The position numbers and the translations under genes were made by a program. The notes beneath the pieces are model-generated. The model made no database searches. It was not told the DNA's origin and saw nothing but the letters and a program-made list of their open reading frames with translations. A DNA stretch of 64,000 nucleotides, from positions 62,001 through 126,000 of the forward strand of contig NZ_FNHL01000006.1 of NCBI RefSeq assembly GCF_900103715.1, written 5' to 3'. The DNA comes from Halogranum gelatinilyticum (GTDB taxonomy: Archaea; Halobacteriota; Halobacteria; Halobacteriales; Haloferacaceae). Positions 17,613-52,656 of this stretch are shown here, piece by piece; positions within the stretch are counted from its first letter, which is position 1, and the number at the start of each line of letters is the position of its first letter.

Positions 17613-18125
17613 ATGAGCAAGATTGAGCTTACAGACGACTGGGCACGTACACTCTCGTCGAATCGGAAGGGGGATTTCGGCGAAGCTATCGCCAAAACCC
17701 ACATCCAGTCGGTTGTCGAGGAGTGCCCTCACGAACTCTTTCCTGAGTACGGGGACATCGATTCGTCGCTGTACACGCAGGCACGCCATCGTCACCATTT
17801 CACCTTCAGAGAGGCCGATGAATCGGGGAAGATAGAACGGATTCAGTGGCAAGCCGACTTGACAATCAAACTCATCAATATCTACGAAGACAGTGCCCCA
17901 GAGATGGAACGAAACGTCGCGCTCGAAGTAAAGACTGGCCAGTACGCGAAACTGGAACGTGATCAGAAGAAAGTGATGGGTATCCTCAATGAGGACGAGG
18001 AAACGCTCGTCTTACGAGCGAACGTGCGATTGGATGGTGACTCAATAGCAGAAATACAGTATTCGACTCTAAAGCCAGACGCGTCAACGAAGGCAGGGTA
18101 TCGTCTCATACCTTTTAATCTCTAA
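17613..18125 (+). CDS. PD-(D/E)XK-like nuclease, RecB/Hjc-type motif set
   Basis: This 170-residue protein shows KGDFGEAIAKTHIQ (early Glu), WQADLTIKLI (Asp) and NVALEVKTGQYAKLERDQKK, which supplies the E-x-K pair and the following Gln. This is the order of the PD-(D/E)XK core. It lies 94 bp upstream of the DUF499 ATPase on the same strand and diverges from the methyltransferase (103 bp between starts). It may be the cutting partner for unmethylated DNA. The assignment rests on motif order; no family name is claimed. Confidence 0.7.
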   Translation: MSKIELTDDWARTLSSNRKGDFGEAIAKTHIQSVVEECPHELFPEYGDIDSSLYTQARHRHHFTFREADESGKIERIQWQADLTIKLINIYEDSAPEMERNVALEVKTGQYAKLERDQKKVMGILNEDEETLVLRANVRLDGDSIAEIQYSTLKPDASTKAGYRLIPFNL

Positions 18126-18219
18126 TCTTTTCGAGGCTTGCACCAGAGCGCAGTCGGTTATTTTGAAAACGACTCACCACAGTACTTATGCTTTTGTTAG
18201 TTAGTCATGCAGACAAGAA

Positions 18220-21480: not shown

Positions 21481-21482
21481 CA

Positions 21483-21869
21483 ATGCCAGAACCCGGCCAA
21501 CTTCCCGGCGAGTACAACATCGTCGTCAAGGACGAGTACGACCTCTTCGACCACCGAGTTCCGGTCGAGGAGTTCAAAGGGATGCTTCAAGAGAACGACG
21601 TACCCGACGAAGTGTGCGTCGTTGGACTCGGGAGCGTCTTCGAGGACGACGAAGAGGTAACCGAACTCTCGAGACTCATGAACCGGAGCGCGAACAACCT
21701 CGAAACACGGCACCCGCTGCCGACAATTCAATTCGCCACGGAAGGATCGTTCCAACGTCGACAGAGAGATTACGAGTTGCAGACGGAGACCGACCTCTAC
21801 CGGTTGAGTCGAGTCTTCGGGCAGCAGATTAGTCGCCGAAGTAGTGGCTGGCTTACGGCACCGTTCTGA
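21483..21869 (+). CDS. Small acidic partner protein of the DUF499 ATPase
   Basis: This 128-residue protein starts at ATG 21483, 2 bp after the ATPase stop. It has a beta-rich N-terminus (GEYNIVVKDEYDLFDHRVPV) and a helical second half with several Arg residues near the end. I do not recognise the family. Tight coupling suggests a subunit of the ATPase complex or an adaptor to the methyltransferase. Confidence 0.6.
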   Translation: MPEPGQLPGEYNIVVKDEYDLFDHRVPVEEFKGMLQENDVPDEVCVVGLGSVFEDDEEVTELSRLMNRSANNLETRHPLPTIQFATEGSFQRRQRDYELQTETDLYRLSRVFGQQISRRSSGWLTAPF

Positions 21870-22006
21870 AGAGAACGGGGATGTTATTACCAGAAACCTT
21901 GTTCACAAGTGGGTGAAGTTAGCAAACTCTATCTGAAAGTCAGATTTAACACCAACAAAACATCATTTTGAGATGGCCATCGCCGTCGGCCAAGAGGTGA
22001 CAATGT

Positions 22007-22144
22007 ATGTCCGACCGACAATGTGACATTTGTGGTGAGGGAATGACACGGGAGTTAGGAGAACCGATGTACGTGGACGACTCTCAATACGAGTATGCCC
22101 ACGTCGATTGCGCTAATGACGTGGGTGTCGATACGTCGTTGTGA
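22007..22144 (+). CDS. 45-residue zinc-finger protein
   Basis: ATG 22007 opens MSDRQCDICGEGMTRELGEP and ends with HVDCANDVGVDTSL before TGA 22142. CxxC and HxxC pairs can bind one zinc ion, as in many haloarchaeal mini-proteins. It lies between the DUF499 unit and the convergent mcrC gene. Its size leaves some doubt, but the Cys/His spacing is convincing. Confidence 0.55.
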   Translation: MSDRQCDICGEGMTRELGEPMYVDDSQYEYAHVDCANDVGVDTSL

Positions 22145-22188
22145 GAGATTCCAAAGACACAACGACGTAGGATTTTTTCGTCATCAGT

Positions 22189-23964: not shown

Positions 23965-25205
23965 TACTGATACGAACCCATCTGGCGCTGTTCAGCCTCC
24001 AGTTCTCGGTTGGCGAGGTCTGCTGCGGCGCCGAGCTCGAACGTCTCGAACGACTTGTTCAACGCCCGGTAGTGTTCCTCGATTTGCTCAATTTGTGGGA
24101 AAGCAGCCGAGTTCAAAAGCCGAGGGACAATGAACGTGCGGAACGCTTGTCCGACCGCTTCTTCGGGTTCGTCCATGTACAGGCTCTCATCTTGGAGTGC
24201 CTCGTGGAGGAAGATGGCGACGTCACGGTAGTGCATCGGGCCGAACCTCATGATTGGCCCGCGCGACGCCTGCTCGGAGCCGTGATTAATTCCCTCGAAA
24301 TCAGCCTCGAAGAGTTCGAGCAGTTCCGCGTTATCGAGTAAGGGGATGTCGCCGAGGTAGTCGTCGATCCATCCCTCGAATAGCGTGCGCCGGTCGTCGT
24401 CCTCGTACTCATCGAGTTCAACCATCGCGAAGCGACGCGTGATGGCGTTGTCCAACTCGTTGACCGTCCGGTCGGACATGTTCATCGTACAGATGATGCT
24501 CACTCGCTCGTCAAGCTCGATAGTCTCTCCGTCGTCGGTTTCGATGAGTGTTTGATTTCGATTCTCGATGGCCGTGTAGAGCGGCCCAAAAATCTGTGAG
24601 ATATCTGCCCGCGTAATCTCGTCGAGTATTACAGCATATGGAATCTCGAAGTCACGTGCGCGCTTGACGCCTTCCGAGACAGCACCGAGCTCCGTCTGAT
24701 ACCCGAGCGACCGAATACCGGTCGACCCTGTGAGCTTCGGGCCGATACCGCCGATGATGTCTTTGGCCGTCCAAGAGGGCGTCGCAGTATGAAGCGAGTA
24801 GCCGACACAATGCTCAAGAGCGAGTTGTTTCGCAAACGTCGTTTTTCCCGTACCTGTCGGGCCGTAGAGAACAACCGGCTTCCCCGTCCGGAGTGCGGTT
24901 CGAGCGTTTCGTTCCACCTCGTCAGGGACTAGTATGCTCTCGGGGGTGTCGTCACCGCGAGTAATCACCGTCCGCTTCAGAGTTTGAGAAGCGTGTGGAG
25001 ATTTCAAAACAGCTTGTCTAATCAGACCTACGCCTTGATCTCCTTCGTGGTGCCGGTCAAGACCCTGTTCACGGATAAGGAATTCGAGGACATCGCTACC
25101 GTTTGAATCTTCGACAGCTTCCACGACCTTCTCGGGGACTGCTCGGAGGACATCGAGATTCTCTCTAGCGTCTTCCACTGTGTAGTTACCCGTAGAGCCA
25201 CTCAT
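23964..25205 (-). CDS. mcrB: McrB-like AAA GTPase of a McrBC system
   Basis: This 413-residue protein is counted from ATG 25205; upstream codons to 25283 are unlikely. Walker A is GPTGTGKTT at about 115-123 and Walker B is AVILDEITRAD. The following IICTMNMSDRTVNELD matches the McrB signature (MNxxD) that reads the guanine base. The N-terminal 90 residues are helical and should hold the DNA- or target-recognition part; they differ from the E. coli methylcytosine domain. It is coupled to mcrC by TAATG. Confidence 0.85.
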   Translation of the reverse strand: MSGSTGNYTVEDARENLDVLRAVPEKVVEAVEDSNGSDVLEFLIREQGLDRHHEGDQGVGLIRQAVLKSPHASQTLKRTVITRGDDTPESILVPDEVERNARTALRTGKPVVLYGPTGTGKTTFAKQLALEHCVGYSLHTATPSWTAKDIIGGIGPKLTGSTGIRSLGYQTELGAVSEGVKRARDFEIPYAVILDEITRADISQIFGPLYTAIENRNQTLIETDDGETIELDERVSIICTMNMSDRTVNELDNAITRRFAMVELDEYEDDDRRTLFEGWIDDYLGDIPLLDNAELLELFEADFEGINHGSEQASRGPIMRFGPMHYRDVAIFLHEALQDESLYMDEPEEAVGQAFRTFIVPRLLNSAAFPQIEQIEEHYRALNKSFETFELGAAADLANRELEAEQRQMGSYQ

Positions 25206-25371
25206 TTTTTGTAAGAATTCAGCCCACCGTGATAAAAGAATGCCTGCGCTGATGCTCACAAACCGGCAGCCCACGGCGCACACGTATTTGGCTCACCCTC
25301 GGCACCAGGGGTGGTGGAACATAAGTTTGTCACCAAAACTGTTTCACCATTGCCAGAATTACACGTATCCA

Positions 25372-27679: not shown

Positions 27680-29779
27680 TCAGAACGCTTGCAGCGAGAC
27701 ATCCTTGTGCTCACCGAGGTATTGTTCGATCTCGCCCTCTCGCCATCCAAGGGGAGAGAGGACGCTCTCTGCGGCTCGGAGTAGTTGCGTACGATAGAAG
27801 TCGGCGTCGTACTCGTCCAATCCCTCGGAGGCAAGCGCAACACGGTCAGATGACTGCTTGCTATCGTCGACAACAACGTACTCCACATCCTGTCCGGGAG
27901 AGCGACTCAACCCCCGGTTCTCTGCTCGCTCCAGCGCAGCAACGTTCCGCGTCGACTGGGTATACTCGTCGAGCGGCTTCGATACACGGTTCTTCACCAC
28001 GAGATCCTCGACATCCACGTCCCCGGTCTGTAGCTTCTGAAGCCACCGCTTCAGTCGCTCACAGACCGCCTTCACATCCCGGTGCTCGTCGAGTGCCGCA
28101 ATCAGGTCCTTCTGCGCCTCTTCGATGAACTGCGGAGTGCTCCGTTGGCGGCACTCGATCCCTCTGAATTTGTAGTCGTCGTCACCGTCGACCTTGCCGA
28201 AGTACTTGGTGAGCGCGCCGGCCTCGGAGTTCCGCATGGGGACGAACGCGACCCAGTCGTAGTGTGCCTCGTGCTCTAATCGGATGCCTACGTCCCCAGA
28301 AATCGCCTCAGCCAACTCGTCGAACGGCGTCTGCTCCTCGCCGTCGACGGGCGTCACCCAGACGGAGTCGACGATCCCGTGGACGACGCGCCAGCCGTGG
28401 GCCTCAAGCATCTCCTTGGTGTCGAGGAGTATCTCACGAGCGAAGGCGTTGATTGCCTCGTGGCACTCGATGCGACCGAACTTCGCGTTCGAGAAGCCCT
28501 GATACCCGAAGCATGAGACCAAGATCCACTTGATTGCGCTTGAGCGCCCTTCCAACTCGGCGACTCGCTCGGGGTCATCTGTCGACCGAAGCTCCTGCTT
28601 GATCGCGTCGCGGTCGGAGATGAGCGGCTCAAGCACGTCCGGCAGGTAGCCCCGCTCGTCACAGATGCAGTAGTCGAGACCAGGGACGTCGTCGCGACCA
28701 GCGTGACACGCACACCGAATCTTCTCGGGACTCACGTTGCGCGTGACGATGATGTTCGGATAGAGCGACGAGAAGTCCAACTCGTGGACGTCCTCGTGGA
28801 CGCCGACGTCGGGTGCGAAGGTGAACCCACCCCGGTCGGCTTCGTGGAGCTGGCGCATCGTCTTGAACTGCTCATGACGCCACGAGTGCCACGGGACCAA
28901 CACCCCACGTTGGCGGGCCTCACGAATCTGAATCGCGGTGAGGATGTTGCCGATTGACGCCCACGCAAGTTCCTGCAGGGGCTTTCCCGACTGCTCGATG
29001 AGGTACAAACACCCATCAAGGTTTGACTGCGACCAGAAGAACGTGTTCGAGCGGTCGATGATGGCCCGTCCGGGCACGTTGTACCGCGCTGGTGAGTGTC
29101 CTACCTGTCCGTAACTCGCGTAGGTCGAATCGGCGGCGAGTTGCTGCCACTCAGGAAGCCGCCCAAGTTGGAACTCCTCAAGACCGAGTCGGTCGGCTGC
29201 CCGGTACAATACTGGAACAATCTCGCTCGTGTTCAGCATCAACACGTCCGGATCTTCTGCGTCGACGGTTCGGGCGAGTTCGGGGAGTACGACCCCCGGT
29301 TCTCCTGTAAGTAGTTCGCCGTCGACGATGATCTCTCTTGGCTCTCCCGAGGCCAACACTTCCTCGTCGATAGCGAGTTCCAGCACAGTCGGCTTCCGTG
29401 ATGGCGTCGCCGACAATCCCTGCTCCAGACAGTAGCGGAACTCTCGCGAGAAGTCCACGTTGTAGAGTCGGTAGTCACCCGGCTGCCCCCACCCAGAGAT
29501 CTCGTGGGCGAGGCTCGTGACGGCGTCAAGACTGTCGACGTCGACTCGCAAGACCGGCTCTGGGTCGTGTCGGAAGCCGATGCGCTCCTCGGCCTCCGTG
29601 GCGTAGACGACGTGTGGATGCTCTCGGAGTGTCGCATAGAGGTCAGTCAAATCCCTACCGCCGTGTGTGGAGACGAACACAGTCGGCGTATACGACGAGT
29701 TACGCTCGCGTTCGACGCCATCTTCGGTGAGTGTCCACTCGACGACGTCGCCGTCGAGATAGTCGATTTTGAACGGCAT
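27680..29779 (-). CDS. polB: Family B DNA polymerase, plasmid/virus type, altered exonuclease and motif C
   Basis: This 699-residue protein has motif A DFSSLYPNII (Asp about 335), motif B KWILVSCFGYQGFSNAKFGR, and motif C VHGIVDSVWV (catalytic-type Asp about 471). The usual motif C is YGDTDS, so the first Asp is replaced by Ile while the second is kept. In the exonuclease half, the expected Asp-rich motif II is VLMLNTSEIVPVLYRAADRL, without the usual Asp, so proofreading is probably lost. It has cysteines after motif A (CACHAGR...CICDERG). It lies just downstream of a DUF8156-like gene and a RecA-like gene, all on the minus strand, and could copy the replicon or act in repair. Confidence 0.85.
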   Translation of the reverse strand: MPFKIDYLDGDVVEWTLTEDGVERERNSSYTPTVFVSTHGGRDLTDLYATLREHPHVVYATEAEERIGFRHDPEPVLRVDVDSLDAVTSLAHEISGWGQPGDYRLYNVDFSREFRYCLEQGLSATPSRKPTVLELAIDEEVLASGEPREIIVDGELLTGEPGVVLPELARTVDAEDPDVLMLNTSEIVPVLYRAADRLGLEEFQLGRLPEWQQLAADSTYASYGQVGHSPARYNVPGRAIIDRSNTFFWSQSNLDGCLYLIEQSGKPLQELAWASIGNILTAIQIREARQRGVLVPWHSWRHEQFKTMRQLHEADRGGFTFAPDVGVHEDVHELDFSSLYPNIIVTRNVSPEKIRCACHAGRDDVPGLDYCICDERGYLPDVLEPLISDRDAIKQELRSTDDPERVAELEGRSSAIKWILVSCFGYQGFSNAKFGRIECHEAINAFAREILLDTKEMLEAHGWRVVHGIVDSVWVTPVDGEEQTPFDELAEAISGDVGIRLEHEAHYDWVAFVPMRNSEAGALTKYFGKVDGDDDYKFRGIECRQRSTPQFIEEAQKDLIAALDEHRDVKAVCERLKRWLQKLQTGDVDVEDLVVKNRVSKPLDEYTQSTRNVAALERAENRGLSRSPGQDVEYVVVDDSKQSSDRVALASEGLDEYDADFYRTQLLRAAESVLSPLGWREGEIEQYLGEHKDVSLQAF

Positions 29780-34330: not shown

Positions 34331-35617
34331 CTACGCCATGTCGCGGATGACGTCAGCGCCGCCGGCGAGCCGGTCGTCAGAGTTGGGGAGATTCTCGATG
34401 GCGGTTTCGATACCGACAGCGAGTGAGTAGCGGTTCGTAACGCCCTTGCCCTGTCCTCGTCCAGTTGTCTTCTTCTTGAGGATATTCGAGTGCGAGAGAT
34501 TATTTAGCTTCTCTCGGTAGCGACGGTCAGAGAGGCTCTCGACGCCGTACCGAGAGCAGATTTGTTTGTGATAGTCGTAGAGCTTGTTCGTCTCTATCCA
34601 CTTTGCGTCGTCACGAACTGTGTAGTACGTGACGGCCATGAGCGCAATCTTCGCGTGTGTCGGCAGGGAATCGATTCCTCGTTCGACAGCCCGCCGTTCG
34701 ATATAGTCACGTGCATCACGAACGTGTTGTTCCGTTACGAATTGCTCTCCAGCGTCGTCGGCGAGCCGGCAGGCCCGGAAGAGTAACTTGATTGCCTGAC
34801 GTGCGTCCCCCGAGTCGGCTGCTGCATAAGCTGCTGCCAGCGGGATAACGTCCGATTCGAGTACACCGCTAACCAGGACTGTACCATCAATCCCATTAGT
34901 CGCGACGGTGGGGCGAGAGTCCTCAGCAGCTTCGTCGACGAAGTCTGTATCTGTGAGTCCCTTCGCTGCGCGGCGGGCGAGAATTGCGCGGAGTTGATTA
35001 GCGTCGTAAGGAGAGAACTCGATTTCGTCTTCTCCGAGTGAAGAACGAACGTCTGCATTCAGATTCTCCCGGAACTGCAGATCGTTCGTGATACCGATGA
35101 TGGAGAGTCGGACGTCTTCAAGCTCAAGTCGGGGGAGTTCGTACAGTACGTAATCGTCATCACCGATGGCGTCGATCTCGTCAAGAACCAATATGATAGT
35201 GCCACCAATTCTGCGGATTTCCGTGGTGACCATCTCGAAGAGCGCCTTTTTTTGGTGGCCCTTCGGGAGCTCGGCACCAGGACCTCGGAGCTCCTTCACG
35301 AGGTGGGTGAGCAGGTGATAGGACTTGTCCAAGCCTTTGCATTTGACGTTCACCACAGTGACGTCGATCCCCTTGTCATCGGCGAAGCTCTGTAGTTGGT
35401 GGGTTTTGAGGTTGATTGCCGCCGTTTTTCCCTGCCCGGTGGGGCCATATACGAATACGTTGAGCGGCGTTGACCCCAAAGTGGCGGGACGGAGGGCACT
35501 GTGGAGTTCGTCGAGTTCCATCTCGCGCTCTGGAAGCTCACGGGGACGGTAACCCTTGTTTGGGTTCAGCACGTCCATGTCGTCGAAAATTGTCTGCTCC
35601 TCGCCGAACTCTCGCAT
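34331..35617 (-). CDS. orc1: Orc1/Cdc6 replication initiator (second copy)
   Basis: This 428-residue protein starts at ATG 35617. It has Walker A GPTGQGKTAA, Walker B TIILVLDEIDAIGDD, sensor 1 LSIIGITNDLQFREN, and a C-terminal winged helix (AKIALMAVTYYTVRDDAKWI; YRYREKLNNLSHSNIL-type segment). The N-terminus has the typical FDDMDVLNPNKGYRPRELPE. It lies directly beside an array of origin-box-like repeats (35653-36034), so it very likely starts replication there. A TATA-like AATAACTAACAATC region precedes it. Confidence 0.92.
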   Translation of the reverse strand: MREFGEEQTIFDDMDVLNPNKGYRPRELPEREMELDELHSALRPATLGSTPLNVFVYGPTGQGKTAAINLKTHQLQSFADDKGIDVTVVNVKCKGLDKSYHLLTHLVKELRGPGAELPKGHQKKALFEMVTTEIRRIGGTIILVLDEIDAIGDDDYVLYELPRLELEDVRLSIIGITNDLQFRENLNADVRSSLGEDEIEFSPYDANQLRAILARRAAKGLTDTDFVDEAAEDSRPTVATNGIDGTVLVSGVLESDVIPLAAAYAAADSGDARQAIKLLFRACRLADDAGEQFVTEQHVRDARDYIERRAVERGIDSLPTHAKIALMAVTYYTVRDDAKWIETNKLYDYHKQICSRYGVESLSDRRYREKLNNLSHSNILKKKTTGRGQGKGVTNRYSLAVGIETAIENLPNSDDRLAGGADVIRDMA

Positions 35618-35652: not shown

Positions 35653-36034
35653 CATGTCCAGTGACGTCAATGAGGGGGTATCATGTCCAATGATGATTCC
35701 GATCAAGACTGTGTAGGAGGGAGAGGGGGGTACGTCCAGTGTAATCCCCTCGAAGATTGGAGGTGATTCGCTCGCTAACTATTGTATCGGAAAATGCTAA
35801 GTAACACCCAATTCAACCGTACCCTTACTGGTTAGAGAACCGATTGAATGAACTGTTCTGACGCGTGAATACTCTGTATAGTACACTGGACGCACCCCCT
35901 CTCCCCGTTGTTTCTTCGATTGCTACCATAGGCTTCTATTTGGCACCGGCTCATTGGACGCACCCCCCTCTCCGAGTACTTCGTTCTGGATAGATTCTGC
36001 TCATCTCGTACACTGGACGCACCCCTCCCTCCCT
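35653..36034. other. Replication origin with origin-recognition-box-like repeats
   Basis: Three plus-strand boxes share the core ACTGGACGC followed by a C-rich tract: 35885-35906, 35953-35973 (ATTGGACGC) and 36012-36034. On the left the boxes are inverted: a full one with GAGGGGGGTACGTCCAGTGT at 35723-35742, and a weaker one with GTCCAGTGACGTCAATGAGG near 35656-35675. The two orientations face an AT-rich stretch of about 35762-35880. This is the arrangement of archaeal Orc1 origins (ORBs around an unwinding element), and orc1 starts 36 bp away. Confidence 0.8.
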
Positions 36035-40708: not shown

Positions 40709-41767
40709 ATGGTTGATCTAATCGACGTCGTCCTCGAGGGGTTCAAAGAGGTCGTCGACTGGTTGATAGGCCTCTTCATGGAGGGTCTGCAGACCGGATA
40801 TAACACCCTCACGGAGGAAATGTTTGGAACCCCGACACCACAAACGGATGGGACGTTTGTATTTGGGACGCCCTCCAATGGTCCGTGGCCTGCGATACAA
40901 GACGCCCTAGTTGGTGGCGAGATTATGCTAATCTCGTTACTCCTGTTGCTGATGTGTGTTCAAGGACGGCACACAATCGGAATTTTCAACATTGGAAGCG
41001 CATACGAAGCGAGGCGGACGAAGAAAACCGCCTGGGTCGGAGCCTTCCTCATCATTACGTGGTACTGGGTCAGTATTCTGTGCCTCTACATCGTTGATGG
41101 GTTCACAATTGCTCTGATGCCGAGCCTCAGCTCGTTAGGAGATGCGATGCTCAATTTCTTAGAAGTCTCTTTGAGCAATCCAGCACTCGCCTTCGTCTTT
41201 GCTATGGTTGGTGGACTCTCGATGTGGGCACTTGAGGCCCTCTACTACATTCGGGAAATCCTCCTCTACGTGTACGTGTATGGAATGCCGATAGCGTTCG
41301 CCTTGGGTTATGGGAATATCCCCGTTCTCTCCGACATTTCGATGGGGTTCATCAAGCGGTTCGTTCCGCTCGCAGTTCTACCCCTCCCCGCAGCGGTAGT
41401 GTTCAAAGGATACGACCTACTCTACTCCGAAGGCGCGCTTGCCCCGGGTAGTGCATTTCTGAAGTACCTCGTAGCCGCTTCTCTACCACTGGTTGCCCTC
41501 TACATTACCTGGAAGACGTTCAAATACGCGACTCCGCTGACTGCAAGAGTCGTCGGAGGCGCAACGAGGGGAGCAGCACTTGTTGGCAGTGTCGCAGCAG
41601 GCGCGTACGTCGGTGGTGCCGGCGTCGCAACAACTGCTGCACGATGGGGTCCAAAGGCTGCCGCTGGTCAGATGATTGCAGAGAAGGCAACAGCACGGAC
41701 GCAGAGCAGTGATGAACAGAACAGTACGCCGTCGTACCGGCGAACCGAGAACGACCCCGGAACCTAG
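40709..41767 (+). CDS. Polytopic membrane protein, VirB6/TrbL-like
   Basis: This 352-residue protein starts at ATG 40709, 2 bp after the lipoprotein stop. An amphipathic N-terminus is followed by at least six hydrophobic segments (for example IMLISLLLLLMCVQ, WVGAFLIITWYWVSILCLYI, ALAFVFAMVGGLSMWALEAL, FVPLAVLPLPAAVVFKGYDL, LVAASLPLVALYITWK). A Gly/Ala-rich segment (AALVGSVAAGAYVGGAGVAT) precedes a polar tail. This architecture matches VirB6/TrbL channel proteins. Confidence 0.7.
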   Translation: MVDLIDVVLEGFKEVVDWLIGLFMEGLQTGYNTLTEEMFGTPTPQTDGTFVFGTPSNGPWPAIQDALVGGEIMLISLLLLLMCVQGRHTIGIFNIGSAYEARRTKKTAWVGAFLIITWYWVSILCLYIVDGFTIALMPSLSSLGDAMLNFLEVSLSNPALAFVFAMVGGLSMWALEALYYIREILLYVYVYGMPIAFALGYGNIPVLSDISMGFIKRFVPLAVLPLPAAVVFKGYDLLYSEGALAPGSAFLKYLVAASLPLVALYITWKTFKYATPLTARVVGGATRGAALVGSVAAGAYVGGAGVATTAARWGPKAAAGQMIAEKATARTQSSDEQNSTPSYRRTENDPGT

Positions 41768-41776
41768 TAAGAACTC

Positions 41777-42898
41777 ATGTCGATGGATCAAGACACAGCA
41801 GCACGGCGCATTATGAATCAGTTCGGCGAAGAGAGTCGCATCCCCTACCTGAACATCGAAGAGGGGGACGTCGGCGTACTCATCGCTTTTCCAATTATTG
41901 GCCTATTCATTGCCGGCCTCAGCGGAATCGAATCACTTGCTCTCCCGTTCGTAGCAGGGGGACTCGGGTTTGGCGTTGCCGTCATCTACGTCTCTCCCGA
42001 CCACCTGAACGCGTGGACGTGGACAAAGGACGTCTATCGTTACGCCAAGCGTCCGCGAGTTACGTTCAATGCCCCAGAAGAGCCCAAGAGTACCACGAAC
42101 GAGACCGTACGAAATGAAGGCGGTCTCGCGAACTACACGCCGTTCAAACCTGACGAGCGAACACAGGATCTCACGAACGTCAAGCGGGCGTGGCCCGGTG
42201 CTGGAGCGATTCAACGAGTGGACGGAACGATGGAAGCGTTCATCGAAATCAATCCGGGCAACATGGACTTCGCGATGTCCGACGACTGGGCCAAACTCCA
42301 AGAAGCGAGTAAGGAATTCGCCAATAAGGAACTCGATTCGAAACTCAAATTCCACGCGACAACTCGGTCATTCCCGGTAGAACAAATCACCGAGACGATC
42401 GAGGAGCGACTCAATGACGAGGACGTCAAACAGAACCCAATTCTCCAAGAACTCCTCGAAGAGTACCGTGAGACGCGCCCCAAGGAGATGCGTGACCGAG
42501 GCATCCAACAAGTTCGTTACTACATCGGCGTCGAAGTTGCCCCGATCGAAGTCTACGACAAGTACCGAGACGAGGGCACACCTGCGGAGAAACTGACGCA
42601 GTTCCCCGTCATCGGGTTCCTGTTTAACCCGTTCGTGACCCGTCGTGAGGATCTGACGGCTGTAGAGAAGCGGGCACAGATGTTCAAGAAGCTCGATAGC
42701 CGCGTCAATGACGTTCGCACCGAATTCATCCAGCAGGCGTCTGGCTGGTCCGCTCGTCGCCTCAGTACGGTCGAGCTGTTCGTCCTGAACATGGACTTCT
42801 GGAACGGACAAGAGCACACCCACGACGATGCAACGCGTGTTGTGCGCGAGCAGCCAATCATCGGCCGCTCCCGTCGGGAGGACGAGACTGATGTATAG
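41777..42898 (+). CDS. VirB3/PrgI-like membrane domain fused to a VirB4 N-terminal-like domain
   Basis: This 373-residue protein has a short hydrophobic pair near the N-terminus (VGVLIAFPIIGLFIAGLSGI; ALPFVAGGLGFGVAVIYVSP), as in VirB3/PrgI. Then come 280 soluble residues resembling the N-terminal part of VirB4 (AGAIQRVDGTMEAFIEINPG; RGIQQVRYYIGVEVAPIEVY). It overlaps the VirB4 ATPase start by 8 bp. In many bacteria these two parts are one polypeptide with the ATPase; here the break lies before it. Confidence 0.7.
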   Translation: MSMDQDTAARRIMNQFGEESRIPYLNIEEGDVGVLIAFPIIGLFIAGLSGIESLALPFVAGGLGFGVAVIYVSPDHLNAWTWTKDVYRYAKRPRVTFNAPEEPKSTTNETVRNEGGLANYTPFKPDERTQDLTNVKRAWPGAGAIQRVDGTMEAFIEINPGNMDFAMSDDWAKLQEASKEFANKELDSKLKFHATTRSFPVEQITETIEERLNDEDVKQNPILQELLEEYRETRPKEMRDRGIQQVRYYIGVEVAPIEVYDKYRDEGTPAEKLTQFPVIGFLFNPFVTRREDLTAVEKRAQMFKKLDSRVNDVRTEFIQQASGWSARRLSTVELFVLNMDFWNGQEHTHDDATRVVREQPIIGRSRREDETDV

Positions 42899-45080
42899 CG
42901 TTGTCCTGCAGGTGAGTGGTGAGACCGTGACCCAGCTTACAGAGTGGCTACTGAACCCAACGTCACCCGAGGGGGCTGCGATTTATCTCCTGTCGGTTGT
43001 GGCTCTCGGCGTCGTCGGGAACCGTCTCAAGAACCGCCACACCGCCGACGACGAACCCGAAGTGGACTTTTCGGACGTCCTCGACGAGGAGACGCTCGAA
43101 GAGGGTCACGCAGAAGGCCAACTCCTCGACGACATCTCCGAGTCCCACAAGACGGTGACCGCGCCGGCAGCCATCGAGTGGGAAACACGAGCTGCACGCG
43201 TCGGCGAGCAATGGACGACGACACTGTACATCGCTGACTACGCCGACTACCCGAACGACGGCTATCTGAGCGACCTCTTCGAGTTGACCGACGTCGAGTT
43301 CGACCTCACAGCGCACATCACCCCGAAGAACCAGCAGCGGGCACGGAACGAACTGCAGGACATCGCTGACGACCTCCAGGTCGACGCCGATTTGGAACAG
43401 AGTGTCCGCAGTGCGTACCTCCAAGAGCGAGCGAACGAAGCCGCTGCGACGTACAAGGCCGTCGAGAGTGGTGCGAACGTCTTCGACCAGGGGATGTTCG
43501 TCACAGTTCGCGCCGACGACAAGGACGACCTCAGGAACTCGGTGCAGAAGGTCAAAAGCGCTCTCCGTGACGAGCCAGCAAACCTGACGCCGAAGACTGC
43601 AATCTGCCGGCAGGACCTCGCGCTGCAGTCGGTTGCTCCCATCGGAGGGAATGCATTTGGCCGCGAATCAATCGCCCTCGGTGGGGCCGTTGGCGCACTC
43701 CTCTCGTCGCCGCATAACGCGACCATCCTTGAAGAGGGCGGGGTTGAGTTCGGGATCCACAAGGACAACCAGAGTCCCGTCGTCATCGACCCGTTCGCCC
43801 GTGACAACGGGTACGCGATGTTCACCGTCGGCGATACTGGGTCTGGGAAGTCGTTCGGCTCGAAGCAGAACTTCATCCGCTCTATCGAGCAGAGCAAGGA
43901 CCGCATCGGCATCATCCTCGAACCGCTCAACAACTGGGCAGGCGTCTCCGAAGCACTCGGAGCGAAACGCATCACGGTCGGTGGGACCCTCGGGCTGAAT
44001 CCCCTGGAGATTCGCCAAACGCCCGACCACGTCCAGCGGGCGATGGGTGAGGACGCGAGCCCGTTCAACGAGAAGCTCGACGACGCGATGAGCTTCCTGA
44101 CGAATTTCTTCGCACTGCGCGGTATCTCACTCGGTGACCGCCGGACAACACTCGAACTCGGCCTCAAGCGCGCCTACAAGCGCAACGACATCATCGACGA
44201 CATTTCGACGCACAGCAACCCCAGCCCGACCATCCGAGACATGATGGACGTCTTCGAGGACATGGTCGACGACCCAGAGTCGTTCGTGGTTCGGTCCGAC
44301 GAAGAGGCCGGGAAGATCCGCGAAGACGCGACGTGGCTTCTCGACCAGCTTCGTCCGTTCGAGGAGGAGGGTCGCCACGCTAATCTCGGGAAGTCCTCGG
44401 AGTTCGACATCCGTGACGAGAAGGTCATCTACCTCGACCTTGCACAGCAGGAGGGCAGCGTCGACAGCAGCACGGCGCTGACGATGCAGTTGCTCATCTC
44501 GCTCGTGTACGAGCGGGCGAAGGAGACTGACAAGGAGGTCGTATTCGTCATCGACGAGGCACGGTACATCATGCAGGACGCCGCGAGTCTAGCGTTCCTC
44601 GAGACGGTGTTCCGACATCACCGCCACCACGACCTCTCGATTCGACTCGTCACGCAGACCGTCGACGAGTTCTTCGAGCACGCCGAATCCGAGGCCATCC
44701 TCGATCAGTGTGCCGTCAAGCAGTTCCATCGTCTTGATGGGATGGACGAGCAGTGGGCCGACGAGTTCGGCCTGAACTACGCCCAGATGCGCTACGTGCA
44801 GGATGCAGTCCCCGGGAACGAGGACGCTGGCTTCTCCGAGGCGCTTGTCGGCGTCGACGGCGAGTGGCGCGGTATCAAGGTCGAAGCGATGCCCAAAGAG
44901 AAGCAAGTCATCGACTTCGACCCGACGACTCAGACACGGGAGTCACTCCCTGGTGCAGAGATTGATTCACGTAACAGCGACGACCAAGCCAGCCGTGCCA
45001 ATTTACGAGACCAGGGCAGTAGTGCTGTCGCCGCCGAAACAGACGGTGGTAATGAGGTGAGAAACAGCCATGAACCGTGA
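42891..45080 (+). CDS. virB4: VirB4/TraC-family secretion ATPase
   Basis: This 729-residue protein starts at ATG 42891, overlapping the previous stop. One hydrophobic segment near residue 30 (AAIYLLSVVALGVVGNRL) is followed by the ATPase: Walker A VGDTGSGKS (Lys320), Walker B VVFVIDEARYI (Asp555-Glu556), and QFHRLDGMDEQWADEFGLNY in the C-terminal part. VirB4 energises pilus/channel assembly. Its stop overlaps the start of the coupling-type ATPase by 11 bp. It and its neighbours have higher GC than the AT-rich leader. Confidence 0.88.
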   Translation: MYSVVLQVSGETVTQLTEWLLNPTSPEGAAIYLLSVVALGVVGNRLKNRHTADDEPEVDFSDVLDEETLEEGHAEGQLLDDISESHKTVTAPAAIEWETRAARVGEQWTTTLYIADYADYPNDGYLSDLFELTDVEFDLTAHITPKNQQRARNELQDIADDLQVDADLEQSVRSAYLQERANEAAATYKAVESGANVFDQGMFVTVRADDKDDLRNSVQKVKSALRDEPANLTPKTAICRQDLALQSVAPIGGNAFGRESIALGGAVGALLSSPHNATILEEGGVEFGIHKDNQSPVVIDPFARDNGYAMFTVGDTGSGKSFGSKQNFIRSIEQSKDRIGIILEPLNNWAGVSEALGAKRITVGGTLGLNPLEIRQTPDHVQRAMGEDASPFNEKLDDAMSFLTNFFALRGISLGDRRTTLELGLKRAYKRNDIIDDISTHSNPSPTIRDMMDVFEDMVDDPESFVVRSDEEAGKIREDATWLLDQLRPFEEEGRHANLGKSSEFDIRDEKVIYLDLAQQEGSVDSSTALTMQLLISLVYERAKETDKEVVFVIDEARYIMQDAASLAFLETVFRHHRHHDLSIRLVTQTVDEFFEHAESEAILDQCAVKQFHRLDGMDEQWADEFGLNYAQMRYVQDAVPGNEDAGFSEALVGVDGEWRGIKVEAMPKEKQVIDFDPTTQTRESLPGAEIDSRNSDDQASRANLRDQGSSAVAAETDGGNEVRNSHEP

Positions 45081-48000
45081 GTACCTTCGTGTCACACCGA
45101 CCGCAGAGGCTCTCCCGTCGAACGATGTCGCAACGACACTCGCTAGTCTCCACAAACTGACTACTACTGACTCTCCAGGACTCTTCGAGAAACTCAACCC
45201 GTTTCACTCTACACTCCCTCCACGGTTCGAATTTCTCGTCATTAGTGAGGGACATAACCAACCAGTTGAGTTCTACTATGGTGCCGATGAACGATTAGAG
45301 ACGCTAGAAGCGCGGCTTCGCTCAATCTATCCCTCGTCGTTCGATATCGAACGAGCAAACCTCAATACTGCAACGAAACTCATCCAGCCGGTCGATTATT
45401 CCCGAGAGAGATTCAGTGAGGCCCTAAGGGGAGGTCAATTGCTCTATGAGTTTAGTGGCGACGAGAGACAGGCTGTAAGCGAAGAGGGCCCAGAGAACAA
45501 ACCCTCCGACACCGAGACTTGGGTCAAAGCGGGCGACAAACTCGTTAGCCTTGCAAATTCAGACACCAGCCCTGAAGGTGCAAAGCAGACTTCGGTTGGG
45601 AAACCCGTGGTAACCGAAGACGGTACTATTCTTGCGCGGCCTGCCATTGATTCGATTCGGCCAGTCGGTGTTCGATGGTGTGGCAGCACGACTCGGAAGG
45701 AAGACTGGATGACGACACTTGTCCCGTTCACAGAGTCCTCGACAGTCAACGGAGCGAGTGAATCCACAGGGGTCCCACTGGCTACTCTCATCGATTACCT
45801 GAACGAGTTTGAGCAGCCAATCGCGTTCCAGGTCGTGTTCCAACGACGAGACAATTGGACGGCAGATGCAGAGCTTCGAAAAGAGAATCTCGTTGATGGT
45901 CGAGACACGCTTTTTCAAGAGCTCGTCGGACCGCTTCTCGAAGTCGACGAACAAGCACACGAGGCGAACCACAGGGAACTGAGCGAAAGTGTCGAGAAGC
46001 GGATCGAGAACATCACCGAGAAAGACCCGGCACGAACCTTTACAGTGAATATTCGGGCCGTCTCGGTTCCACCGAAAGATGCCGATATAGAGCATCTCGA
46101 GCAGAAGATGGAGTCGTTACGACCCGTATTTGACTCGCTTGAGGGTCAGTTCTACGGCGTTGATGGGAGGCGACTCCGGGAGACAGGGTGGCGACAGACT
46201 ACGAAGGAGAAGAACGCCCGGAAAGAGCTCAAGCGACTGCTGAACCGCGAAATCACAACAAGTAGCGGGAAAGTGCGACCAAACCTCGTGTTGAACGCCG
46301 ATGAGTTGGCGAACTTCACTCTCGTTCCGTCTGCTGAGCAGCTCAGTGTAGAAGGAACCAGAGGGACACGTGCGGAGCAACAGAGCAGAAACCCGCTACC
46401 ACGCCCACACCAAGACCTCATGGATGAATTCCGTGACGGCATGGCTATCGGCTACGCTCTTGACGAGAACGGAGACCCAGAGGACGAACCAACACACATT
46501 CCACCAGGGTTACTCCCAACCCACTACGGACGCTTCGGTACAACGGGATCAGGGAAGTCGAAGGCACTCATCAACGAAATCCTCTCGCTGTACAACAACA
46601 CCGATGGGCCTGTCATCCTCGTCGACCCGAAGGGCGATGGGATGGCCGAGAACTATATGCGAGCCCATGCTCGGCGCTTCGGAATGAGCGACTTAGAGGA
46701 GAACGTTATCCACTTCCCAATTCCGGATGTTCTCCCGGGCTTCTCGTTCTTTAATCTGAAGCCCTCGATGCGGAATGGGCGGCACCGAAGGGATGCCATT
46801 CAGCGGAAGGCAGACCACTACGAAGAGATTCTGAAGCTCGTTATGGGGACAGACCGCTACGAGCGGGCAACCGTCTCTCCAACCGTTATCAAGACACTGA
46901 TCAAGGCGTTGTTCGACGAAGAACACGGTCGTGAAAACGGACTGTACCGTGAGTCTGCAGACTATTTCGCCCATCGACAGCTGGAACACGCGGTTGACCA
47001 ATTGTGGGATGCCGGACCACCACAGGAGTCCCTTGCAGATGCACCACAATCGAGCGACGAGGAAGTCGTCCGAACGCTACGTCGGCAACTCCAACTGGAT
47101 TCGAGCACATTCTCGAACATTATGGGCGGTGTAGCGAACCGCCTCGCATACATCTCACAGGACACTCACCTCCGTCGGATTTTCAACAACACAGAAAACC
47201 AGTTCGACTTCCGTGATGTGCTTGACGAGAACACCGTCATCCTGTTCGACCTTGGTGACCTTCGTGGCGAGGCCGCCCGCATCATGACGGGTGTGATTCT
47301 GACCAATCTCGACGACGCACTCAGAGAACGCAAACGTGATCTTAACCAGTACTCCGACCAGTACGTGGTAAACTTGCTCGTCGACGAGGCGGCATCAGTC
47401 GTTGTTTCGGACATTATGAACGACCTCCTCGAAAAAGGGCGAAGCTTCCGCCTCTCTGTGGGACTGTCAATGCAGTTCCCCGAACAGTTAGAAGCCGAGG
47501 GTGGTCGCAAAGTGTATCTAAACGCGTTGAACAACATCGGAAGCTCTCTCGTCGGGAAAGTCAACGTCGACCAAGAGTTGGCGCAAGCGATGGCACACGA
47601 GGAAATGGACCCAGTCGAATTTGCTAATCGAGTCCGGTCGCTCCCACGTGGTGAGTGGATCGCCAGCCTTCCAAGCCCAATATTTGGCGAAACAGGCCCG
47701 TACCCGTTCAGCTTGAAGCCTCTCCCGATACCAGCAGGCCACCCAGAGAGTGACTATCCACTTACAGAGCGTGAAGAAGAACGCTTCTCGGAGAGGCTCT
47801 CGTCTATTCATACTCGGGCGTCCGAGGAATTTGGTGTCCCAGAATCCTCAGCACCCAATACACGGACACCCGAAGAAATCAACCAAGCTCTCAGTATCGA
47901 CGTGGACGATTTGGACGTCGCCATCGCGAAGACCGTCCGAAGCGTGCAACTCCGCAACGGCGTCCATGAGGACAACGAGTGGGTGAGCGTCGAGACAGTC

Positions 48001-49287
48001 GACGAGACGTTGCGAGAGCTGTACGAGCGTGTCGACGCCGAACCACCGGCCTATGAGGAACTCACGGAGATTCGAAAGCGATCACGACTGCTCGATACCA
48101 CGGTCGATATCGACGCCGACGAACTCATCGTCCGACTCACGGAGGCAGGTGAAACCGAAGCTGAACCCGACACAGGCGACGTACGATCTGCCGGTGGAAG
48201 CGACCACGACGATGCGCTCTTGGAAATCGAGCAGGCGCTGTCGCCGTTGGGGTTCACCGTCTCGATTCTCACGCAAGACGGGAGTGAGAAACCGGACGCC
48301 AGAGCGACGCATCCGGACCTCGAAACGCCGTTCGCAATCGAGGTCGAGACGACGACGCCAGAGTACCCAACGAAGGTTCTCACGAATCTCAAGAAGGCAC
48401 AAGCGGAGAGCGCAGTTCCGCTGTTTGTTGTCCGAACAGGTGAGACAGAGACCTACTGGGCTGAACGAATCGAGACCATCCTCTCACCGCCAGTTCGTGA
48501 GCTCGCGAACGGCAAGACACGGTTCTATACGCACGATTCGCCGTTGACATTCAATGGCGGAGCAACCGAGCACGGTGGCGTAACGGCCATCCGGCCAGTG
48601 AACGGGGGCGACGACTCGAAGCGCTCTGTGTGGGTGAAGGATGGAAACGAGATTGCCCTTCAGGATGGGGATGGCACAGAGTATCTCCGTGCCTCTGGCT
48701 GGGACAACGTGACGAAAGACCGTGTGCCCGCAACCTACAGCTACGACCACCCCGTGGAGGAGTATCTCGTCTATGAACGTGGGGAGATTCACGTCTATGA
48801 GTCGAAAGCGGCACTCGAAGCTGACTGGGCGACAATCAAACAGCCGTTCATCCCTACAGAAGAATTGGTCGACCCAACGAACAGTACGGACAGCTATGCA
48901 ATCGTTATTCTCCGTGAGGATAACGAGGCGGTCGTCTACAGGGACGGTTCTACGAAGCCTCTTGAGACAATCCTTGAGAGTACCGAGCAATCCGAGGAAG
49001 CTCCAACCAAAGACTGGAAAGATGATTCTGATGCTGTTGTCGAGCAGTTTGTATCCGAGTGGATTGTCGAAGAGGGGGGCAATTCAGTCCCCGCTGCAGA
49101 CGTCTATTCGACGTATGAATCGTGGGCCAAACAACACGAGATCACTCCCGATTCACCGAGCTGGTTCAGTCGACGCCTCAGTAACCAGATAGAATTTGAG
49201 CGGACAACTGAGCGCCACGATGGGGAGGCGATTCGGTGCTACAAGGGGATTTCGCTCGCAAATCGGGGTGGCAACGATGAATTCTGA
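45070..49287 (+). CDS. VirD4/TraD-type coupling ATPase fused to nuclease-like and D5-primase-type DNA-binding domains
   Basis: This 1405-residue protein starts at ATG 45070. Residues about 1-440 resemble the N-terminal part of archaeal conjugation ATPases. The ATPase has Walker A FGTTGSGKSK (490-497 core), VILVDPKGDGMAENY, and Walker B VVNLLVDEAASVV; the SVGLSMQFPEQ segment matches the VirD4/HerA family. Around 1055-1130 a PD-(D/E)XK-like core is visible (Asp1076 in KPDA; Glu1091-Val-Glu1093 where ExK is usual). The last 85 residues (about 1320-1405) read as the winged helix that closes D5-type primase-helicases (FVSEWIVEEGGNSVPAADVY; RRLSNQIEFERT; RCYKGISL). This combination could let the pump bind specific DNA without a relaxase, as an inference. 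Confidence 0.8.
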   Translation: MNREYLRVTPTAEALPSNDVATTLASLHKLTTTDSPGLFEKLNPFHSTLPPRFEFLVISEGHNQPVEFYYGADERLETLEARLRSIYPSSFDIERANLNTATKLIQPVDYSRERFSEALRGGQLLYEFSGDERQAVSEEGPENKPSDTETWVKAGDKLVSLANSDTSPEGAKQTSVGKPVVTEDGTILARPAIDSIRPVGVRWCGSTTRKEDWMTTLVPFTESSTVNGASESTGVPLATLIDYLNEFEQPIAFQVVFQRRDNWTADAELRKENLVDGRDTLFQELVGPLLEVDEQAHEANHRELSESVEKRIENITEKDPARTFTVNIRAVSVPPKDADIEHLEQKMESLRPVFDSLEGQFYGVDGRRLRETGWRQTTKEKNARKELKRLLNREITTSSGKVRPNLVLNADELANFTLVPSAEQLSVEGTRGTRAEQQSRNPLPRPHQDLMDEFRDGMAIGYALDENGDPEDEPTHIPPGLLPTHYGRFGTTGSGKSKALINEILSLYNNTDGPVILVDPKGDGMAENYMRAHARRFGMSDLEENVIHFPIPDVLPGFSFFNLKPSMRNGRHRRDAIQRKADHYEEILKLVMGTDRYERATVSPTVIKTLIKALFDEEHGRENGLYRESADYFAHRQLEHAVDQLWDAGPPQESLADAPQSSDEEVVRTLRRQLQLDSSTFSNIMGGVANRLAYISQDTHLRRIFNNTENQFDFRDVLDENTVILFDLGDLRGEAARIMTGVILTNLDDALRERKRDLNQYSDQYVVNLLVDEAASVVVSDIMNDLLEKGRSFRLSVGLSMQFPEQLEAEGGRKVYLNALNNIGSSLVGKVNVDQELAQAMAHEEMDPVEFANRVRSLPRGEWIASLPSPIFGETGPYPFSLKPLPIPAGHPESDYPLTEREEERFSERLSSIHTRASEEFGVPESSAPNTRTPEEINQALSIDVDDLDVAIAKTVRSVQLRNGVHEDNEWVSVETVDETLRELYERVDAEPPAYEELTEIRKRSRLLDTTVDIDADELIVRLTEAGETEAEPDTGDVRSAGGSDHDDALLEIEQALSPLGFTVSILTQDGSEKPDARATHPDLETPFAIEVETTTPEYPTKVLTNLKKAQAESAVPLFVVRTGETETYWAERIETILSPPVRELANGKTRFYTHDSPLTFNGGATEHGGVTAIRPVNGGDDSKRSVWVKDGNEIALQDGDGTEYLRASGWDNVTKDRVPATYSYDHPVEEYLVYERGEIHVYESKAALEADWATIKQPFIPTEELVDPTNSTDSYAIVILREDNEAVVYRDGSTKPLETILESTEQSEEAPTKDWKDDSDAVVEQFVSEWIVEEGGNSVPAADVYSTYESWAKQHEITPDSPSWFSRRLSNQIEFERTTERHDGEAIRCYKGISLANRGGNDEF

Positions 49288-49335
49288 GATTAGGCAGTGT
49301 ACGCCTTCAAACGCCACTCTATCGCATTTCACGAT

Positions 49336-49518
49336 GGCGTTACGCCAACGGGCTGCTGCGATTCGCGAGAATCCGCAAAAACGCAAGACAGCGTGGTGTT
49401 ACGGCAAAACCGAGAATGCCGTAACACTGACCCTTGCTCAGAAAAATGCCGTACATGGCGTACGCCTGTACCTCAGCGTCTCTATCTTCCAATTGGGGAT
49501 TCTGTTACGGCAAAAACC
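49336..49518. repeat. Inverted-repeat cluster upstream of the PrimPol gene
   Basis: GTGTTACGGCA (49396-49406) and TGCCGTAACAC (49417-49427) form a perfect 11-bp inverted repeat with a 10-bp spacer. TGTTACGGCAAAA recurs at 49503-49515. Palindromes GGCGTTACGCC (49336-49346) and GGCGTACGCC (49457-49466) lie alongside. The 333 bp between 49288 and 49620 otherwise hold no convincing gene; the open frame there has basic, non-typical composition. Confidence 0.6.
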
Positions 49519-49620
49519 AACTAGTATAGAGGGGGGTGAGGCCGTTGGAAGTGAACGAAGTGAACAGCGAGGGATTTTTTCTGGCGCCAAAAGGGGCGCG
49601 GCTCCCAAAAGAGACAACCA

Positions 49621-50880
49621 ATGACTGGCGAACCTACCGAGATGCTGACACAGGAATCGATACCCGAAGAATTAGTCGAACAACCCCAGTGGGTGTGCTG
49701 GCGACGGGCGGAACGCGACGGGAAAGCGACGAAGATTCCGGTGGTCCCAGGGGTGGGGTCATTCGCGTCGTCGACGGACCCCGAAACATGGTCGGACTTC
49801 GAGACTGCCCTCGGATATCTGGAGCGCGGCCGGGCCGACGGCGTCGGGTTCGTGTTCACTGAGGAGGACACCATCGTCGGCGTCGACCTCGACGACTGTC
49901 GCAATCCAGAGAGCGGAGACGTCGACGACGACGCACAGGACATCATCGAACGCCTGGACTCCTACACGGAAGTGTCGCCATCAGGAACGGGGTATCATGT
50001 GCTCATCCAAGGGAGCTTACCCGACGGCCGCAACCGACGAGGGAAGATCGAGTGTTACGACACAGCGCGCTTTTTCACCGTGACCGGCGACCGGGTGGCG
50101 GCGACGCCACGAGACGTTGCACACCGACAAGATGCCCTGGAAGCGATTCACCGGGACTACGTCGCAGACGAAGAGTCGACGCAATCGACAGACAGTCCTA
50201 AGCGTGTAACGCAACGTGACGAGGCACCGTCTAGCACGTCACTCGACGACGACTCCCTACTCAAGAAAGCGAAACGCGCCTCGAACGGCGAGAAGTTCGA
50301 GCGACTCTGGAACGGGAACATCACGGGCTACGACAGCCAGTCGGAAGCGGACATGGCGTTGTGCTGTCTCCTCGCGTTCTGGACTGGCGGCGACACACAA
50401 CAACTGGAGCGACTGTTTCGACAGTCCGGACTCATTCGCGAGAAGTGGGACGAAGTCCACTACGCCGACGGGTCGACGTACGGAGAAAAGACAGTTGAAC
50501 GAGCGATTTCGAACACTTCGGAGTATTACGACCCAGGCACCGAGAGTAACTCGAGTGACTCTCACACACCTTCAGAGACCTCACCAGACGTCGGCGACGA
50601 CGTCGACCGCAACCGAGCGTATCTGGTCGAAAAGAACCGACTGCTGGCAGACCGTGTCGACACACTCGAAGCAACGCTTGAGCAGAAAAACGAGCGTATC
50701 GAGACGCTCGAAAGAGAAGTTCAACAGCTCGAAGACGAACTTGCAAACCGAGAGCGAGCAGCAACGAGTACCTCACAAGGAGAGGCCGGTGAGCAGGGTG
50801 GCGGAGCCGAAGCCGAAACAGAAGCGTCGGCGTCTGTGTGGAACCGGACGAAACAGTGGCTCGGGACCGACTCAGAGTAA
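49621..50880 (+). CDS. PrimPol-type primase-polymerase
   Basis: This 419-residue protein starts at ATG 49621, with a second ATG seven codons later. It has the archaeo-eukaryotic primase core: VGFVFTEEDTIVGVDLDDCR (metal-binding Asp89 and Asp91), SPSGTGYHVLIQG (the SxH-type motif) and RFFTVTGDRV. A helical domain follows (YDSQSEADMALCCLLAFWTG), then an acidic linker and a long coiled coil (LLADRVDTLEATLEQKNERI). It could prime DNA on the plasmid or complement transferred DNA. It lies after the secretion operon with its own repeat-rich upstream region. Confidence 0.85.
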   Translation: MTGEPTEMLTQESIPEELVEQPQWVCWRRAERDGKATKIPVVPGVGSFASSTDPETWSDFETALGYLERGRADGVGFVFTEEDTIVGVDLDDCRNPESGDVDDDAQDIIERLDSYTEVSPSGTGYHVLIQGSLPDGRNRRGKIECYDTARFFTVTGDRVAATPRDVAHRQDALEAIHRDYVADEESTQSTDSPKRVTQRDEAPSSTSLDDDSLLKKAKRASNGEKFERLWNGNITGYDSQSEADMALCCLLAFWTGGDTQQLERLFRQSGLIREKWDEVHYADGSTYGEKTVERAISNTSEYYDPGTESNSSDSHTPSETSPDVGDDVDRNRAYLVEKNRLLADRVDTLEATLEQKNERIETLEREVQQLEDELANRERAATSTSQGEAGEQGGGAEAETEASASVWNRTKQWLGTDSE

Positions 50881-51795: not shown

Positions 51796-52221
51796 TCAGT
51801 ACCGTTGCTGGAACCACTGTGCAATTTCTTGTTGGAACTGCTCGAACCAGTGGAGGTCGTTGTGTAGCACAGCATAGACGACATCGTGATTGACATCTCC
51901 ATACCGATGGGCGAGGATGTTCCGAAACCCGACTGCTTCTTCCATCTGCTCTTGCACCGCTGATGAGATGATGTTCGCAGACCCGAGCGACTCGATTTCC
52001 TTCTTCGAGGTTCCACTCGGTGAAAGTCCCTCAGAAGCACGGATATGCTGGGCAAGGTCGATGCAGGACTGAATGAGGTTCATGAACGTCCGTTCGACAG
52101 CTCGTTGAACGATGACGTCCTCGACATATTCTGTCTTCGACATCCCACGCATCTGCTTCAGGTCGTTCGTGTACTCGTTGATGTGACGAAGTTTGTCGAC
52201 GACGATGTCCGGATCAACCAT
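51796..52221 (-). CDS. hepT: HepT-like toxin of a MntA/HepT system
   Basis: This 141-residue helical protein has the HEPN RNase motif RNILAHRY (Arg100, His105, Tyr107; Rx4HxY). An upstream acidic/polar helix (VERTFMNLIQSCIDLAQHIR) is typical of HepT. HepT toxins are RNases blocked by the partner nucleotidyltransferase through AMPylation of the Tyr in the motif. Its ATG directly follows the stop of mntA. Confidence 0.85.
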   Translation of the reverse strand: MVDPDIVVDKLRHINEYTNDLKQMRGMSKTEYVEDVIVQRAVERTFMNLIQSCIDLAQHIRASEGLSPSGTSKKEIESLGSANIISSAVQEQMEEAVGFRNILAHRYGDVNHDVVYAVLHNDLHWFEQFQQEIAQWFQQRY

Positions 52222-52656
52222 CTAGACGTCACCACGAGCAAGTCGATCGATGAATTCACGACGAGCTTGCTCTCGTTCATTCTGGCCCGCCTCGTACGCC
52301 GCGGTGACTTGTTCTCGATACGCGTCAACGACTTCCTCCTCACCAACGAGACAAGTCCCATCTCGAATCGCGGCATATGCAACGTGCGTTGGGAGCGACT
52401 CGATATCACTCACGTCGACGAATCCCACCGCAAATTCCTGTAACTCAGCGTCGATACGGTTCCGTCGGCGGAATCGCTCGTTTTCAGGCATCTCCGCTGG
52501 GAACCGGAGTGCGATATCGACATCCGATGACTCGTCGGCCGTCCCTCTGGCATGTGACCCAAAGAGAATCGCGAAGCTGACCTTCGTTTGAGCGAGGTAC
52601 GCCCTGATGGCATCAATGTCGAGTGTATCGACAGCGGAGTCATCTGAGTCGGCCAT
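52222..52656 (-). CDS. mntA: MntA-like nucleotidyltransferase antitoxin
   Basis: This 144-residue minimal nucleotidyltransferase has GSHARGTADESSDVDIAL, that is GSx10DxD (Gly33-Ser34, Asp45, Asp47), the MntA active site. It would AMPylate the HepT Tyr to neutralise it. It is the first gene of the pair. Confidence 0.85.
   Translation of the reverse strand: MADSDDSAVDTLDIDAIRAYLAQTKVSFAILFGSHARGTADESSDVDIALRFPAEMPENERFRRRNRIDAELQEFAVGFVDVSDIESLPTHVAYAAIRDGTCLVGEEEVVDAYREQVTAAYEAGQNEREQARREFIDRLARGDV

Follow-up and report, generated by a model that had tools for sequence, protein, structure and literature searches.

In Streptomyces, the C-terminal winged helix of the DNA motor TraB reads 8-bp repeats located beside the motor gene (PMC3583192; PMC12857230). 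For archaeal conjugative plasmids, reviews report that no relaxase has been recognised (PMC12857230, PMC9905601), and therefore no DNA-processing step has been recognised either. On the features compared here, the Streptomyces TraB/clt system is the closest working analogue of a locus that we analysed in the haloarchaeon Halogranum gelatinilyticum. Both combine a coupling-type DNA motor that ends in a winged helix (here a Pox_D5 match and an RFX/P4-like model) with short repeats of 7-9 bp next to the motor gene, whose word is specific to each plasmid, and both appear to do without the need for a relaxase (PMC3583192, PMC12857230). As in clt/TraB, the repeats beside the motor gene appear to match the winged helix of the motor, judging from covariation and leave-one-out classification. 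In contrast, TraB is FtsK/SpoIIIE-like and works without VirB4/TrbL, whereas the motor studied here is TrwB/TraG-like (TrwB_AAD_bind/TraG-D_C) and is encoded beside VirB4 and TrbL genes; furthermore, a nuclease-like domain forms part of this motor, the site includes an invariant dyad core, and a PrimPol gene adjoins it. Given the different motor family and the presence of VirB4/TrbL genes, the module is not a member of the clt/TraB system.

Three other systems show partial resemblance. The origin of phage P4 consists of short direct and inverted repeats, as does this locus, and P4 alpha likewise is a multidomain ATPase that ends in an origin-binding winged helix with the same fold (1ka8, Z 8.6); however, P4 alpha is a primase-helicase for replication, whereas in this locus a conjugation motor carries the domain and a different protein is the primase. 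With the relaxase-type bacterial oriT the locus shares an inverted repeat and accessory-protein repeats beside transfer genes. It differs in that the core holds no recognisable or known nick (nic) motif, and in that no relaxase family was detected by Pfam among the larger ORFs of the window, a scan confined to such ORFs and to known families. The neighbouring PrimPol belongs to the same family as that of phage NrS-1, and the bottom strand of the core has TTGGTT in common with the NrS-1 template site 5'-TTTGGTTA-3' (PMC8718748), although these six bases are all that is common and about one quarter of the cores read TCGGTT. A literature search returned no described haloarchaeal oriT or matching element, which does not amount to proof of absence.

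The window, i.e., the whole 64,000-nt stretch of DNA that was analysed, contains a conjugation-type run of genes, all on the plus strand: a TrbL/VirB6-like protein (40709-41767; Pfam TrbL_3, 2e-139), a VirB4/TrbE-like ATPase of the mating apparatus (42828-45080; Pfam CagE_TrbE_VirB, 1.3e-4) and, as the last gene, a TraG/TrwB-like coupling ATPase of 1405 aa (45070-49287; Pfam TrwB_AAD_bind 3.6e-6, DUF87 1.5e-5), which is the proposed reader of the repeats. The gap under study (49288-49620) separates it from an NrS-1-like PrimPol gene (49621-50880, plus strand; Pfam NrS1-1_pol-like_HBD, 8e-31). Just downstream of PrimPol, the region 51796-52656 on the minus strand looks by eye like a HEPN/MNT toxin-antitoxin pair. 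A probable defence island with a DUF1156 methylase, a DUF499 protein and McrBC-like genes lies near the transfer genes (14855-25283), and a family B DNA polymerase gene (27680-29779; Pfam 1e-28) is found on the same contig.

Two domains of the coupling ATPase follow its motor. At the C-terminus, Pfam reported Pox_D5 (1.2e-4) at residues 1320-1377, and the model of residues 1318-1400 (49021-49269, plus strand; pLDDT 71) is an RFX/P4-type winged helix, with RFX5 (Z 11.1), RFX1 (Z 10.6), the ASFV PrimPol C-terminus (9.4) and the P4 origin-binding domain (8.6) as the closest structural neighbours; its recognition helix is likely DSPSWFSRRLSNQI. Between the motor and the winged helix, residues 1040-1125 (48187-48444, plus strand) form a candidate PD-(D/E)XK-like nuclease domain, proposed from conservation, the model and its structural neighbours. 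The model follows, at moderate confidence, the alpha-beta-beta-beta-alpha-beta order of PD-(D/E)XK enzymes, with the near-invariant D1076 at strand 2 and E1091xE1093 with the lysine on strand 3, and resembles VRR_NUC (8.3), PaqCI (8.2), Hjc (8.1), BsmI and N.BspD6I. Almost every one of 47 relatives keeps H1046 D1047, P1075 D1076, E1091xE1093, K1102 and N1106. With residues 985-1290 as the query, sequence searches of Pfam and PDB yielded no informative hit and no family profile match. Since the Z is moderate (8; pLDDT 69), no sequence profile matches and the structural model alone pointed to a nuclease, we treat this region only as a candidate nuclease.

The initial annotation had placed a TTACGGC repeat cluster at 49336-49518. 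All of its repeats were found: a perfect 11-bp inverted repeat formed by iteron 1 (GTGTTACGGCA, 49396-49406, plus strand) and iteron 2 (TGCCGTAACAC, 49417-49427, minus strand) with a 10-nt spacer, a third copy (TGTTACGGCAAAA, 49503-49515), which includes iteron 3 (TGTTACGGCA, 49503-49512, plus strand) abutting the core, and two GGCGT..ACGCC palindromes, TGGCGTTACGCCA (49335-49347) and GGCGTACGCC (49457-49466), the latter retained in Halogranum rubrum. The interval itself was too short, as the functional unit is larger and its core starts at the interval's end. The elements now added are a half-degenerate iteron TGCCGTACA (49447-49455, minus strand), in a slot (-67) that holds intact iterons in L102 and L124, a constant CGCAAGAC box (AAACGCAAGAC, 49379-49389, plus strand), found at fixed offsets in most relatives, and an almost invariant core (49513-49548). 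Decay of an iteron probably explains the palindrome at 49335, as the related locus L099 has an exact TTACGGC there, -175 from the core. Chance origin of the repeats was ruled out: GTGTTACGGCA occurs in the 3.77-Mb genome at these two places only, and any 10-mer is repeated three times within 130 bp at just four places of the 129.6-kb contig, one being the gap cluster and another the Orc1-linked repeats at 35.9 kb.

Comparison among relatives indicates that the repeats belong to a larger conserved non-coding module (window 49335-49548), composed of 3-5 iterons and a CGCAWGAC box upstream and the core downstream. The core AAAACCAACTAGTATAGAGGGGGGTGAGGCCGTTGG (49513-49548, plus strand; consensus AAAACCRACTAGTATAGAnnGGGG..CCCCGTYGG) aligns without gaps in 56 distinct relatives, in which the CnnACTA columns, among others, are invariant or nearly so. 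Its left arm CCAAC (CCRAC; 49517-49521) covaries with the right arm GTTGG (GTYGG; 49544-49548), both on the plus strand, with 14 double changes in 42 sequences (11 at one pair and 3 at another); for the whole dyad structure we counted 18 double changes versus 5.8 expected, with slid-register controls reaching at most 7. RNAalifold gave no consensus structure for the core; we therefore dropped an RNA-element reading and regard the dyad as a feature of the DNA. The CGCAWGAC box lies at -43 from the core in either orientation, or at -128/-136, in most relatives.

DNA of the gap matched 39 of the 293 genomes of the order, with the matches concentrated in two blocks, one of which is the core and reaches just past the interval first annotated. 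The exact 14-mer CCRACTAGTATAGA gave 59 matches in 45 of 391 genomes of the class, versus 7 for the reversed control; two of these matches (L066 and L115), without iterons and without the neighbour genes, were taken as chance. When a longer core pattern was scanned against ~85,000 bacterial and archaeal species, 16 of the 17 matches were haloarchaeal. A phage origin of the segment was rejected, as it had no match in a phage collection. The order coupling ATPase–core–PrimPol is constant in dozens of elements: among loci fetched by the ATPase C-terminus, independently of the core, all 30 have a core with at most two mismatches 147-327 bp behind the ATPase stop codon, and PrimPol then follows. 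Locus L131 has the ATPase, iterons and core with no recognisable PrimPol, and in L095, L120 and L121 PrimPol and the core are kept with only a tail of TraG.

While the core stays constant, the iteron sequence switches among at least eight types across the relatives: TTACGGC (the window), TTCCACCC, TTCAGGGYA, TCCAGGGTA/TCCAGGCA, TTACGACA, GCGATA/GCGGTA types, TGTGACACC, GGACAGGCGA and GGTCAGGGGAAA. The positions of the iterons relative to the core are fixed across types, though their sequence changes. Iterons of the TTACGGC type are found at -116+, -97- and -10+, those of the TTCCACCC type at -108+, -88-, -59- and -11+, and those of the TTCAGGG and TCCAGG types at about -95+, -53+ and -22+.

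From alignments of full ATPases and PrimPols, we examined in a sliding window whether sharing an iteron type goes with a higher similarity between two proteins than the remainder of their sequence predicts. ATPase residues 1341-1400 stood out, with a partial r of 0.72 (25 elements) against a protein-wide median of -0.03, and the maximum for PrimPol was 0.38. After dereplication, none of 2000 label permutations reached the value of residues 1341-1400, and the motor and N-terminal regions of the ATPase had no association with iteron type in the permutation test. In a leave-one-out prediction of iteron type by nearest neighbour, the winged helix was correct for 37 of 38 loci, the rest of the ATPase for 26 and PrimPol for 18. 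Natural swaps agree with this pattern: L104 (TTCCACCC) and L099 (TTACGGC) are 88% identical in TraG 1-1300 and 87% in PrimPol, versus 42% in the winged helix; L098 and L118 represent a second swap (80% / 37%), and further loci pair B-type winged helices with TTCCACCC iterons. The proposal in the initial annotation that the D5-type winged helix of the ATPase binds these repeats gains strong comparative support, as iteron type tracks TraG 1341-1400 alone among the segments tested, and binding of the iterons by this domain is a strongly supported prediction from computation. In a separate observation, the VirB4 gene beside the ATPase shares either ~85% or only ~37% identity with that of the window in L099, L104 and further relatives, and the ATPase stays at ~60% or more while VirB4 varies, suggesting that the mating apparatus is also exchanged as a module.

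In the interpretation that we favour, at a probability of about two in three, a haloarchaeal conjugative element uses the segment as a cis-acting origin of DNA processing, most likely as its transfer origin (clt/oriT-like); a function in transfer is the most likely consequence of the winged-helix reading. Based on the covariation and the fold, the C-terminal winged helix of the ATPase would bind the iterons, with winged helix and iteron word matched to each other within each element. The constant spacing between iterons and core may in turn hold the bound ATPases in a set geometry over the core. The core would then be the site of action common to all elements, where the strands are opened or cut, plausibly by the nuclease-like domain of the same ATPase. 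From what is known of these families, the ATPase would pass the DNA on to the VirB4/TrbL apparatus, whose genes lie in the same run, and PrimPol, encoded just downstream, could start synthesis on the retained or the received strand. A bolder version, in which the origin is relaxase-free and the ATPase alone does the donor work, with its winged helix recognising the element-specific iterons, its PD-(D/E)XK domain cutting or nicking the core and its motor pumping the DNA, while a dedicated PrimPol primes the complementary strand, is tentative, and we regard it as somewhat doubtful.

The same protein fold could instead serve vegetative replication, with a P4-alpha-like winged helix and PrimPol starting plasmid replication at the core and no role in transfer. 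PrimPol being the next gene, the presence of P4 alpha and ASFV PrimPol winged helices among the closest structures, the fact that iterons are typical of plasmid origins, and the retention of PrimPol and core in the three loci with only a TraG tail are all in keeping with it. An orc1/cdc6 gene with ORB repeats is, however, the usual haloarchaeal origin, and the window has such a gene (34331-35617) with four ORB-like repeats (CACTGGACGCACCCCC and its complement) beside it at 35718-36034, the probable vegetative origin of the element, which weakens the case for a second one in the gap. No ORB repeats with a G-string were found in the gap 49288-49620. Moreover, the protein that matches the iterons is a conjugation motor encoded with transfer genes, motor, iterons and core are all present in L131 although no PrimPol is recognisable there, and the GC-skew minimum of the contig lies elsewhere, although GC skew is uninformative for this contig. 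We therefore consider a replication origin unlikely.

The initial annotation had also offered an operator for the PrimPol gene, and the segment could be an operator or promoter of that gene bound by the coupling ATPase or another regulator, given that it lies directly upstream and has a TATA-like stretch inside the core. This is less likely, and in our estimate improbable: iteron type does not follow PrimPol similarity, a TATA box would need less than a covarying CCRAC/GTYGG dyad that encloses an almost invariant 16-mer, and cores are retained in loci whose PrimPol is broken or missing (L067, L084, L096, L112, L117, L119 and L131, several of them orphans). A further explanation is that another protein reads the iterons and the match with the winged helix reflects physical linkage of neighbouring DNA only. 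The winged helix is encoded ~250 bp from the iterons, and physical linkage alone would give some correlation between them. In distant pairs of the same class, the winged-helix segment also shows slightly higher similarity at third codon positions than the motor does (0.46 vs 0.39). This likeness at silent sites implies that iterons and winged helix have partly moved as one recombining block. The correlation itself does not prove binding. The winged helix is nevertheless a DNA-binding fold that is replaced when the iterons are, and PrimPol on the other side is not. In addition, 3-5 iteron copies in both orientations change together at fixed positions, so that the specificity of their reader must change too; linkage without recognition appears very improbable to us.

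The module is the best candidate of which we are aware for the place where archaeal conjugation grips its DNA, a step to which no archaeal protein or site is known to have been assigned. It supplies a defined cis site, a probable reader and a candidate cutting domain. As no relaxase is recognised on archaeal conjugative plasmids, a cis site of this kind, together with its probable reader, would open the question of DNA processing to experiment, and the unit to be tested is small (~330 bp of DNA and a protein domain of ~115 residues). As a sequence tag, the module can also help to locate conjugative and mobilisable elements of haloarchaea, and it may give a basis for gene-transfer tools in these organisms.

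Orphan modules without the ATPase or PrimPol occur in L067, L069, L077, L084, L112, L117 and L119, a frequency biased by the core-based search from which the orphans came. If the ATPase alone does the donor work, such iteron-core modules on elements without transfer genes would be hitchhiking transfer origins. L084 (G428:C66) carries three complete cores within 1.4 kb, each with an iteron type of its own, and has neither ATPase nor PrimPol; the trio lies near an apparent tyrosine-integrase gene and is possibly a multi-origin hitchhiker. The 7.3-kb contig G281:C53, with Cdc6 and an orphan core, was considered as a circular mobilisable plasmid but could not be assigned as one, as its ends do not overlap. 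All 62 plasmids with matching DNA in PLSDB are annotated as non-mobilizable.

The genome of the window harbors a second, broken element (L080, G000:C7), in which a 59-residue TraG tail, intact TTCCACCC iterons, a near-identical core and scraps of PrimPol remain. It also encodes a second coupling-ATPase lineage (L163, G000:C5:80500-90000), 53% identical over residues 3-932. That ATPase ends without a winged helix, the core is absent from the locus, and PriS/PriL-like primase genes follow instead of PrimPol.
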